DNA of 42,424 nucleotides from Coriobacteriia bacterium (GTDB taxonomy: Bacteria > Actinomycetota > Coriobacteriia > Anaerosomatales > Anaerosomataceae), in the NCBI GenBank assembly GCA_030655755.1, contig JAUSOQ010000033.1, positions 1 to 42,424 of the forward strand. The letters are read 5' to 3'. Below the pieces are notes generated by a model. It made no database searches. It worked only from the letters and a program-made list of their open reading frames with translations, and was not told where the DNA came from. Within the stretch, counting starts at the first letter, position 1, and each line of letters begins with the position of its first letter. The position numbers and the translations under genes are program-made. Below, piece by piece: positions 27,736 through 30,553 of this stretch.

Positions 27736-28797
27736 TCAGAACTGGTGCAGGAAGCGCGTGTCACCCTCGATGAACAGACGCAGATCGGGAATGCCGTACT
27801 TCAGTGCGGCGATGCGCTCCGCTCCCATGCCGAATGCAAACCCGGTATAGCGTTCCGGATCGATGCCGACATGGCCGAAGACCTTGGGATCGACCATGCC
27901 GCATCCCAGTATCTCGAGCCACCCTTCGCCGCCACACGAACGGCATCCTTCTCCGCCGCAGATCCCACAAGACACGTCGACTTCCGCCGACGGCTCTGTG
28001 AACGGGAAGAAGTGAGGACGCAGGCGCACACGACGATCCTCGCCGAACATGCGCTTCACAAAATGTTCCAGCGTACCCTTGAGGTCACCGAACGTGATGC
28101 CCTCGTCGACGACAAGGCCCTCGATCTGGGTGAACTGAGGGAGATGACTGGGGTCAGCAACGTCACGACGGAACACCTTGCCGGGTGCAAGAACGTAGAT
28201 CGGCGGCTTCTGGGTCTCCATGATGTGTACCTGCACGGGACTCGTGTGCGTGCGCAGCAACACATCTGATTCACCCTCGACCACCGCCCGCTCGCCGGAG
28301 AGGTCGCGCACATAGAATGTGTCCTGCAGCGCCCGCGCCGGATGGTCCGGCGGGTGATTGAGCGCGGTGAAGTTGTAGTAGTCGAGCTCCACTTCGGGGC
28401 CCTCGGCCACCTGGTATCCAAGTCCCACGAAGGTCTCGACGATCTCGTCGACGACCTGGTGGATCACGTGACTCTTCCCCGGCATCCGAACACGACCCGG
28501 TAGCGTCACGTCCACGACCTCCGCCGCGATACGCGAGGCTCGTGCGGTCGCCTGCAGCGACCGACGTTTGTCTGCAAGCGCCGCCTCGACCGTCGCGCGC
28601 ACTTCGTTGGACAGCTGCCCGACCACGGGGCGCTCCTCGGCCGACAGTGCCCCGAGCCCACGCAACACCGCGGTCAGCGATCCCTTCTTGCCGAGATACG
28701 CGATCCGCACCGACTCGAGCGTGTCGAGACTGTCTGCCATCTCGACTGCCGCCAACGCCTTACTGCGCAGTGCCGAGAGTTCCTCTGCGATGCCCAT
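27736..28797 (-). CDS. pheS: phenylalanyl-tRNA synthetase alpha subunit
   Basis: Catalytic subunit of PheRS, class II. The 353-residue protein has the N-terminal coiled coil (1-90), motif 2 HTSPVQVHIME and VFRRDVADPSHLPQFTQIEG, and motif 3 GFAFGMGAERIAALKYGI. A cysteine cluster CGICGGEGCRSCGGEGW sits before motif 3; such Zn-finger-like insertions occur in some bacterial PheS. The ATG at 28797 has GAGGGA just upstream. Expression is controlled by the T-box leader at 28826-29095. Confidence 0.97.
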   Translation of the reverse strand: MGIAEELSALRSKALAAVEMADSLDTLESVRIAYLGKKGSLTAVLRGLGALSAEERPVVGQLSNEVRATVEAALADKRRSLQATARASRIAAEVVDVTLPGRVRMPGKSHVIHQVVDEIVETFVGLGYQVAEGPEVELDYYNFTALNHPPDHPARALQDTFYVRDLSGERAVVEGESDVLLRTHTSPVQVHIMETQKPPIYVLAPGKVFRRDVADPSHLPQFTQIEGLVVDEGITFGDLKGTLEHFVKRMFGEDRRVRLRPHFFPFTEPSAEVDVSCGICGGEGCRSCGGEGWLEILGCGMVDPKVFGHVGIDPERYTGFAFGMGAERIAALKYGIPDLRLFIEGDTRFLHQF

Positions 28798-28825: not shown

Positions 28826-29095
28826 ACAGAAGCCGCCCTGTCCCAGGAAGGATCCAAGGACGGGGGCGGCTCCCGCGGTACCACCTCGGTTGGCGCCTCA
28901 GCGCCCACTCGTGTGCCGGGTCCGACCCAGCTTTCCCGGTATCGGCGGGGCACCGGCTTCCCTACTCGGCCATCAACGGCTGTTCAGGTCACAGCTGATA
29001 GAGTGAACCGTCCGGCGCATCCCCGGAGCCCTTGCAGTCGATGGGACCCCATCCCTGGCGAAACGCGTATGCCGTACGCCTCTCCGTCATCGCTT
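28826..29095 (-). promoter_or_regulatory. T-box riboswitch leader of pheST
   Basis: The complement carries the T-box core GGTGGTACCGCG (28874-28885, preceded by AACCGA). Next comes a strong stem AGCCGCCC/GGGCGGCT extended by GTCC/GGAC (28831-28871) and a T-containing stretch, which fits the terminator of the T-box switch. The upstream part has stem-I features: GACTGCAAGGGCTCC near the distal loop and, on the returning side, GGTTCAC with TTC (29005-29007) as a likely phenylalanine specifier followed by A. Uncharged tRNA-Phe would bind and allow pheST expression. An extended -10 (TGCTACACT, 29118-29126) overlapping the 3' end of the upstream gene may be the promoter. This element fills the 310-base gap between pheS and the signal peptidase gene. 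Confidence 0.85.
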
Positions 29096-29107
29096 CTTAT
29101 CATGCGA

Positions 29108-29524
29108 TTAGTAGCTGAGTGTAGCACAATCACGAACCCCGCTTCGCATCGCTCCCCACGTCTTACCGAGCGGCAGAACGGCCACGACGACACCCCTTAC
29201 GTACGTACGATCTACGTACTCCCGATCCGGTACGTCGTTCGCATCGCCGCAGGTCCGCAGCGACCCATCGGGTTCAAGACAGACAACGCGGTGAAGGACG
29301 CCACCAGGCCAGCCTTCCTTGTCGAAGAAGACGATGTCGCCCTCGCCCGCGCCGCGACCCCCCCGCCTGTATACGACGAGGTCACCCGGAGCCAGAGTCG
29401 GCTGCATCGAACCACCACCGACACACGTCACACCGAAACAGAAGCACCACAATCCGATAGTCGCGATAAGTCCCACTGAGCACAGGCGACGAAGTCCCGC
29501 GAATCTGACATCCGGACCCGGCAT
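29108..29524 (-). CDS. signal peptidase I, SipW/ER-type
   Basis: Membrane-bound signal peptidase of 138 residues. One N-terminal membrane span (about 12-33), then GGSMQPTLAPGDLVVYRR with nucleophile Ser39, GDIVFF, and LHRVV with His78 in place of the usual bacterial lysine, then GDANDVPD (93-100). The Ser-His arrangement marks the SipW/archaeal/eukaryotic-ER class rather than LepB. It lacks a long C-terminal extension. Its ATG overlaps the stop of the TasA-like gene (TGATG), so the pair is co-translated and this enzyme probably processes that partner. Confidence 0.85.
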   Translation of the reverse strand: MPGPDVRFAGLRRLCSVGLIATIGLWCFCFGVTCVGGGSMQPTLAPGDLVVYRRGGRGAGEGDIVFFDKEGWPGGVLHRVVCLEPDGSLRTCGDANDVPDREYVDRTYVRGVVVAVLPLGKTWGAMRSGVRDCATLSY

Positions 29525-30006
29525 CAGTGAGCCTGCTCGGCGTCCACATAGAGTGTCATGCGCACGTAGTCACCCGCGAGATCGTTACCTGCACTCGCGG
29601 GGAGTCCAACCGCACAGTCAAGATCAGCCTTCGCGGCAGGTTCGATCCGCAGAGGTGTGGTCGTCAATGCGCTCATCGGACCTTCGTAAAGAAGAACGCC
29701 ATCACACGTGACTCGACACGTGAGCGCATTATAGAAGTCGGTGATGCCCATCTTCTTCGCTCCGGTCACGATAACATCCTCGGCCAACTGACCATCGTTC
29801 ACCACGACGAGCGTCCGCTGAACGGTCTCCCCGGGCGCCAGCGCGTCGATCGACAGCGCAGCCGACGTGGGCTCAGTGGAGACCGAGACGATGCCGGCAC
29901 GCACGACATTGTCGGGTACATCCGCCCTATCGGTGAAGTATGCTCCCGCACCACACGACGACCATACGACCACCAGACCAGCAAACACCCACAGCAGTCT
30001 CTTCAT
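29524..30006 (-). CDS. TasA/CalY-like SipW-dependent exported protein
   Basis: Small exported protein, 160 residues from the ATG at 30006 (GAGGGGGAG lies right before it; the ATG at 30021 would add five residues). It begins MKRLLWVFAGLVVVWSSCG and continues AYFTDRADVPDNVVRAG, the pattern of SipW-dependent signal peptides (AYFTD near the cleavage site, then N..AG). The rest is beta-rich with LAPGETVQRTLVVVNDG, as in TasA/camelysin-type fibre or surface proteins. Its neighbour is a SipW-type signal peptidase with overlapping stop and start codons, so a two-gene secretion unit is likely. Whether it forms fibres is unknown. Confidence 0.75.
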   Translation of the reverse strand: MKRLLWVFAGLVVVWSSCGAGAYFTDRADVPDNVVRAGIVSVSTEPTSAALSIDALAPGETVQRTLVVVNDGQLAEDVIVTGAKKMGITDFYNALTCRVTCDGVLLYEGPMSALTTTPLRIEPAAKADLDCAVGLPASAGNDLAGDYVRMTLYVDAEQAH

Positions 30007-30140
30007 CGCTCCCCCTCTCATGTGTGCCGCGAGGGGAAGCGGCGCATACCTGACCGGTTATCCGGTTCCAAGCGATGTTCTCATGCACTCGCTAACTCGA
30101 ACCGACCGGAGACTGAACGAAATCGAATCCGACACCGAAC

Positions 30141-30170
30141 GCAACAAAGCCCCGCACGCTCACGGGGCTT
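30141..30170 (-). terminator. terminator of infC-rpmI-rplT
   Basis: On the complement AAGCCCCG and CGGGGCTT (30147-30170) form a stem with an 8-base loop, followed by TGTTGCG. It lies 24 bases beyond the rplT stop and upstream of the TasA-like gene, separating the two units. Confidence 0.65.
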
Positions 30171-30193: not shown

Positions 30194-30553
30194 CTACGCG
30201 CTTACCTTCTCCTTCACCTGCTCGACCAAAGCGGCAAAACCGGCAGGGTCGTTGACGGCCATATCCGACAGGACCTTACGGTCCAGCGTGATCTCGGCCT
30301 TCTTCAGCGCGTTCATGAACGTTGAGTAGGACATCCCACTCAGACGCGCCGCAGCGTTGATGCGAACGATCCACAAGCGGCGGATCACGCGCTTTTTGTT
30401 GCGGCGGTCACGATACTCATACTGCAGCGAGTGCTGCACCTGCTCTTTGGCGGCCTTGTAGGTGCGGCTCTTCGCGCCATAATATCCCTTCGCACGCGTA
30501 AGAACGGTGCGGCGCTTCTTCCTCGCTGTGACTCCACGTTTGACTCTAGGCAT
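30194..30553 (-). CDS. rplT: 50S ribosomal protein L20
   Basis: 119 residues, the normal size. [57 protein letters not shown] and the C-terminal [17 protein letters not shown] are diagnostic. It binds 23S rRNA early in assembly and in many bacteria represses its own operon. Third gene of infC-rpmI-rplT, 33 bases after rpmI. Confidence 0.98.

Follow-up and report, generated by a model that had tools for sequence, protein, structure and literature searches.

The best described relatives of the gene pair reported here are the TasA/SipW systems, and the literature found on them, among the matches listed, concerns Firmicutes. In Bacillus subtilis three genes stand in the order tapA-sipW-tasA (excerpts of PMC9674648), and TasA, which has Phe at P2' of its cleavage site, is cut by SipW (PMC10269814, in part). 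The same part of PMC10269814 describes a TasA-MBP fusion on which E. coli LepB acts with very low efficiency, and it finds the Trp at P2 of TasA decisive for this poor cleavage. The donor strand of TasA consists of residues 28-38, and F29, I32 and F39 are engaged in hydrophobic contacts (PMC9674648, in part). The sipW-bsaA system of Clostridium perfringens also combines a peptidase with a filament protein. According to excerpts of PMC7395162, its operon needs a two-component system, BsaA polymerises in E. coli without partner genes, and in a peptidase mutant BsaA stays in the cell fraction. Fibres of TasA-like beta-sandwiches are found in archaea as well, in the bundling pili AbpA / AbpX (7ueg; 9sj2, 9rhp), and the Ser-His pair of catalytic residues is shared with SEC11 and the archaeal-type signal peptidase I. 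Is there any system of this kind in the Actinobacteria? No published account of a TasA-like/peptidase pair in Coriobacteriia, Actinobacteria or Anaerosomatales was among the matches listed, from which subscription literature was mostly absent. As far as these searches reach, a reduced and fixed form of the system that extends over a whole order is new, and so is the candidate regulatory leader in front of it.

The window, i.e. the whole stretch of 42,424 nucleotides that was analysed, comes from a Coriobacteriia bacterium of the order Anaerosomatales. On its minus strand, a TasA-like gene for 160 amino acids (29524..30006) is followed by a gene for a SipW/SEC11-type (Ser-His) signal peptidase of 138 amino acids (29108..29524), so that the two overlap by one base, the common A in TGATG. 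An alternative in-frame ATG at 30021 would give a TasA-like protein of 165 residues instead of the 160 that begin with the ATG at 30006. We count both open reading frames as genes because of the family evidence given below, not because of their length. Upstream of the pair and on the same strand lies rplT (30194-30553), and downstream lies pheS (27736-28797) with its T-box leader (28853..29099, minus strand), which matches RF00230 with E 6e-6 and 35.8 bits, under the gathering score of 93, and by eye has a UUC specifier. The T-box leader starts eight bases after the peptidase stop codon. Among the window's open reading frames there is no third gene between rplT and pheS, and no tapA gene in that interval. 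The preliminary description, which had placed an overlapping pair at 29108-30006 and had it stand alone between rplT and the pheS T-box, thus agrees with both the reading frames and the RF00230 match. The T-box model also matches, again below the gathering score, between the peptidase and pheS in seven of eight stretches from relatives; the eighth, L165, gave no match. It should be noticed that an Rfam search at the gathering threshold misses this T-box leader (35.8 bits against 93). Another small feature is a G+C hairpin after rplT (about 30140-30170) with a weak T tract only, which the terminator scan did not score.

The 160-residue protein belongs, by profile search and structure model, to the TasA/camelysin family and is predicted to be secreted. 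The camelysin profile PF12389 (Peptidase_M73) matches it with 27.7 bits against a cut-off of 22.5, which bears out the family that had been proposed for it. The same profile matches, at E <= 0.1, all 38 members of a protein alignment of TasA-like proteins, picked from 60 for genus spread and clear starts. In a genome-wide search it is over the cut-off in 54 of 61 genomes and has no match at E <= 0.01 in 6 of the 61. The equivalog model of Bacillus TasA, NF046066, gives the protein 16 bits, far under its cut-off of 450. The BsaA model TIGR04090 matches 29 of the 38 members at E <= 0.1 and gives no match for the window protein itself. Profile matches to TasA chains 5of1 and 8aur have E 6e-4, while those to AbpX are not significant (E 0.23-0.36).

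Does the fold agree with this assignment? An AlphaFold2 model of the mature protein, built from a 44-row alignment of mature sequences (the window and 43 of 45 loci of relatives, L130 and L134 omitted), is a beta-sandwich of moderate confidence, with pLDDT 73.6 and pTM 0.70, and with pLDDT under 50 in mature residues 1-18. In Foldseek, the model matches first the TasA fibre 8aur (E 6.5e-5) and then the archaeal bundling pilus 7ueg of Pyrobaculum. By VIA-align the best match is again 8aur (Z 8.7, rmsd 2.8 over 123 residues, from model residue 15), and 5of1 follows with Z 8.5. Hexosaminidase domains reach Z 8.1-8.2, little under the TasA fibre, so the structure match would be weak if taken alone; it points, however, to the same two TasA entries, 8aur and 5of1, as the profile matches do. 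The TasA-type fold expected of this protein is therefore what the model and the profiles jointly support. The mature part is highly conserved: the 44 sequences show no internal gap and a mean column identity of 70%; in the other alignment, of 38 mature sequences, L063 is one residue short and a few end one residue later.

The precursor carries a signal peptide in residues 1-22 (29941..30006, minus strand), and cleavage would fall after A22 (AxA|YF). In all 38 aligned proteins A20, A22 and F24 are conserved, and residue 23 is Y in 36 and F in 2. The feature of SipW substrates, AxA followed by an aromatic residue and Phe (Phe at P2'), is thus present in 38/38. The general model of SipW-type signals, TIGR04088, matches 22 of the 38 members at E <= 0.1 and gives the window protein 13.3 bits, below the cut-off of 19. 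There is also a difference from TasA, in that P2 is not Trp here. Behind the cut, mature residues 1-14 (29899..29940, minus strand) make up the proposed donor strand, which is disordered in the model and has conserved hydrophobic residues: F24 in 38/38, V, I, M or L at residue 34, and I (34 sequences) or V (4 sequences) at residue 35. The mature N-terminus thus keeps hydrophobic residues that match those of the TasA donor strand, and these features are consistent with donor-strand exchange into fibres.

The second gene product matches the Peptidase_S26 profile PF10502 with 23.3 bits against a cut-off of 22.9, and the SEC11C profile with E 1.2e-15. It comes closest to TIGR02228, the model of archaeal-type signal peptidases, with 44.3 bits, under the cut-off of 51.85, and scores 19.5 bits with the equivalog model of Bacillus SipW, NF046067, under 190. 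TIGR02228 is over its cut-off somewhere in 45 of 61 genomes, not all at the rplT-pheS locus. Ser39 (GGSM), His78 (HR), Asp94 (GDAN) and Asp100 are invariant in 28 aligned peptidases, picked from 58 for genus spread and clear starts; starts were chosen by a simple rule, so gap lengths at the gene junctions are approximate. Since Ser39 and His78 are invariant in these 28, the Ser-His assignment (SipW/ER class) made earlier is right. Could the enzyme be the ordinary signal peptidase of the genome? This is ruled out by three bacterial-type signal peptidases over the TIGR02227 cut-off elsewhere in the window genome. These three genes lie inside 5.6 kb on another contig (G000:C21:282915-288470). The window genome has a single TIGR02228 match, at the pair locus, and a single PF12389 match; no other SipW-type signal is over the TIGR04088 cut-off of 19 in it, the window protein itself being below with 13.3. 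With one such enzyme and one evident substrate in the genome, the peptidase appears to be dedicated to the TasA-like protein. G011, G029, G031 and G058 each have, elsewhere, another PF12389 match and another strong peptidase.

How widely is the pair kept? Among 61 genomes searched, of an order that was taken to be Anaerosomatales (Coriobacteriia), the TasA-like gene is present in 60, one copy each; the exception, G024, has a completeness of 77%. In a class-wide draw of 197 genomes, the TasA-like protein was found, among the matches listed, in 66 of 69 order members; the three others are 74-85% complete. Weak TasA-like matches occur in 7 genomes of the draw outside the order. In 58 of the 60 genomes with the TasA-like gene, the peptidase follows, so the pair is conserved together in relatives. 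A chance overlap of reading frames or a lineage oddity is ruled out by the same conservation. The neighbours are nearly as constant: pheS lies downstream in 59/60 (not seen in G034), and rplT lies upstream on the same strand in 57/60, the contig ending within 2.4 kb upstream in the other three. In some relatives 0.75-3.6 kb separate rplT from the pair. Thus a near-universal, single-copy pair is fixed beside ribosomal-protein and tRNA-synthetase genes in an order of Actinobacteriota with subsurface members. In G028 and G043, two genomes of one genus (loci L077 and L078), no peptidase is detectable beside the TasA-like gene. Because both retain the TasA-like gene, the peptidase is not strictly required. 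This genus offers a natural test of peptidase dependence.

Compared with tapA-sipW-tasA, the locus shares the beta-sandwich fold, the P2' Phe signal, the free N-terminal strand and a Ser-His signal peptidase in the same operon. It differs in that the mature protein, with 138 residues, is shorter than the 8aur chain with its 234, there is no TapA gene at the locus, and the peptidase gene follows rather than precedes. Its place between rplT and pheS is fixed, and its upstream region is different. The C. perfringens operon is larger, with bsaBCRSD, whereas no regulator lies beside the genes here. The archaeal pili differ in being archaeal. Unlike SEC11, the enzyme here is short, has one evident substrate and is accompanied in the genome by three bacterial-type paralogues.

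The pair is probably a secretion and assembly unit of two genes, in which a TasA-like fibre or surface protein of minimal form is served by a peptidase of its own and expression looks regulated. The precursor of 160 residues would be made with a signal peptide ending in AxA|(Y/F)F, a type of site that the ordinary bacterial signal peptidase may handle badly, as it does in the one case studied. The Ser-His peptidase from the overlapping gene would cut it and release a beta-sandwich of 138 residues, whose disordered N-terminal stretch would most probably insert into the open sheet of the following subunit by donor-strand exchange, as in TasA. A fibre or surface coat would result, with no TapA-like starter gene at the locus. 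Then could the protein be secreted, released by its own peptidase and kept as a monomeric surface or cell-wall protein that forms no fibres? PF12389 is named for the camelysin metallo-endopeptidase, the sequence-level match to TasA is confined to profile positions 31-80, and the high column identity would suit a binding or structural surface protein equally; the two best Foldseek matches, however, are both fibre subunits, one TasA and the other an archaeal pilus, and the free stretch at the N-terminus agrees with a donor strand. We consider the monomeric protein unlikely and infer, with good reason, that the TasA-like protein forms fibres. The pair is a convenient natural example in which to ask whether TasA-type subunits can assemble when neither a chaperone nor a starter gene adjoins.

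There is a further question, whether such fibres have already been seen. Two cultured members of the order, Es71-Z0120 and M08DHB, bear pili-like appendages over the whole cell, and those of Es71-Z0120 (Parvivirga hydrogeniphila) appear only with ferrihydrite, not with soluble Fe(III)-citrate, its cells later forming a dense matrix (PMC9686372, in part). No gene for the appendages is named in the parts of PMC9686372 on pili and Fe(III) reduction. For the appendages of these first cultured Anaerosomatales one candidate is the TasA-like gene, on the grounds that it is almost universal in the order, seems to be exported and seems to be regulated. Type IV pili, the main rival, could supply the appendages just as well, because pilus-type ATPases are found in all the genomes searched: PF00437 (type IV pilus / type II secretion ATPases) matches in 61 of 61 genomes, 3 to 10 times each. 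On that reading the appendages are type IV pili and the TasA-like protein is an accessory or minor component of the matrix; against it, the pair is a free-standing unit in the window, and we regard this reading as rather doubtful.

Expression of the two-gene unit may be controlled in the leader of the TasA-like gene. In most relatives a hairpin with a C-rich loop lies ahead of the start codon. In the window it is P2 (30026..30043, minus strand), GCCGC-TTCCCCTC-GCGGC, whose loop and part of whose 5' arm form a putative anti-Shine-Dalgarno strand (30031..30041, minus strand). This strand can make an 11-bp pairing with the Shine-Dalgarno strand of the TasA-like gene, GAGGGGGAGCG (30007..30017, minus strand), through 11 contiguous pairs of CGCTTCCCCTC with GAGGGGGAGCG. 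The sister species has 10 contiguous pairs, GTTTCCCCTC with GAGGGGGAAC, and one outer pair is changed on both sides. P2 and the extended pairing would compete, because some bases are common to both. The fold of the window leader has -32 kcal/mol (z -2.55) and includes a 5'-proximal hairpin, ACCGG-ATAA-CCGGT (30053..30066, minus strand). By eye, inverted repeats like this proximal hairpin are seen in relatives. The mRNA leader would thus pair with its own Shine-Dalgarno sequence, and translation would probably be held down until the leader refolds.

Is the hairpin kept for this purpose, or is it a mere stabiliser of the mRNA, or a by-product of the C-rich DNA that precedes a G-rich ribosome-binding site? 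In 47 of 59 leaders, a set selected for the hairpin so that the figures hold for such leaders, the P2 stem has standard pairs in 76.5% of cells against 59.5 +/- 1.9 in shuffled controls, and a covariation score of 0.495 against 0.234 +/- 0.023 in shuffled and at most 0.231 in slid controls, which argues against the stabiliser or by-product. The set omits L014, L027, L071, L084 and L091, whose genera are already represented, L012, L024, L077, L078 and L090, which have no clear stem, as well as L087 and L088, where no hairpin with a C-rich loop could be found. Here L077 and L078, without a clear hairpin, belong to the same genus without the peptidase (G028 and G043). The seven P2 pairs changed on both sides do not stand out, being matched by 72 of 500 shuffles, and this favours the stabiliser or by-product. 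Over 51 leaders (L010 was also omitted), with controls that disregard relatedness, the mean energy of pairing with the Shine-Dalgarno strand of the own tail is -14.0 against -12.8 +/- 0.29 kcal/mol with permuted tails, reached by 0 of 5000 permutations, and the contiguous-pair score is reached by 7 of 5000. With one leader per genus (37 genera) the mean z is -2.7, the median p 0.005 and the largest p 0.016, again against a by-product. Yet only 20 leaders have their own tail in the best quarter of the 51 tails, 31 have it in the best half, and in clades with an AGGAGG site the loop often pairs over only 4-6 bases, as a by-product would. Predicted accessibility of the Shine-Dalgarno site, over 52 leaders (L010 again omitted) and with the same disregard of relatedness, is 0.255 with the native upstream sequence against 0.378 with base-shuffled sequence, and lower in 41 of 52. 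Taken together, the stabiliser or by-product is a serious possibility that we hold to be somewhat less than even, and the leader is a candidate translational switch, a candidate regulatory RNA open to a reporter test.

At E <= 1, the leader drew no match to any Rfam 15 family, either in the window or in eight stretches from relatives; the sole exception was in L018, where a fragment of RsmY (27 bases, 20.5 bits, E 0.38) lies upstream of the hairpin. A leader model, R1, matches directly before the TasA-like gene in 51 of 61 genomes at E <= 0.05, a recovery that is circular, since R1 was trained on 47 of the 51 and the remaining four come from genera represented in the training set. Ten genomes gave no match at that place; among them are G024, where the gene was not found, and G036, where the contig begins inside the gene; G028, G032, G041, G043, G045, G050, G054 and G058 have degenerate or different leaders. 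A wider set of genes with the leader was also sought, to no effect: under strict filters, with at most 102 first-look candidates scored per genome so that weaker copies are possible, one place elsewhere was over 26 bits (G006:C16:270047, 33.3 bits), probably by chance. By eye, this match precedes a putative lipoprotein gene.

A second layer of control may lie further upstream. Three direct repeats 11 bases apart (GTTCAG, GGTCGG and GTTAGC; 30091..30118, minus strand) are followed by a -10-like CATGAG (30080-30085, minus strand), and relatives have, in their upstream regions, repeats of the type GTTCAG/GGTAAG before a -10-like CATGAT. Over the relatives, base identity upstream of the leaders is raised at lag 11 (z 6.4) and lag 22 (z 6.9) against base shuffles, the next highest lag in 6-33 being 18 with z 3.2. 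Sites of the OmpR/PhoB family typically show direct repeats of 11 bases. The repeats thus suggest a regulator of the OmpR/PhoB type, which would act on them upstream of the promoter. No sigma-70-like promoter was found here by scan. It is tempting to join all these elements, with a translational switch of a new class that precedes a single gene throughout most of the order and controls a minimal TasA-like fibre, which assembles by itself and constitutes the ferrihydrite appendage of Parvivirga hydrogeniphila; we consider this combination quite improbable. If true, contact with the mineral would be tied to production of the fibre by the switch or by the upstream repeats.

The pattern of the repeats, with at most 2 mismatches, occurs 42 times in 8 genomes against 4 times for a reversed control, some overlapping sites being counted twice. 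Of the 8 genomes, 5 have it ahead of the TasA-like gene; the window genome does not, its repeats being too divergent. No regulon could be named from the genes downstream of 24 sites, which are mixed (by eye integrase-like, secreted cysteine-peptidase-like and ComEA-like). In two genera a secreted cysteine-peptidase-like gene, recognised by eye, lies behind 11-base repeats (L198 in G008:C6 and L209 in G006:C16), and leader-model matches of 21.2 and 33.3 bits, respectively, fall in or near these two loci.
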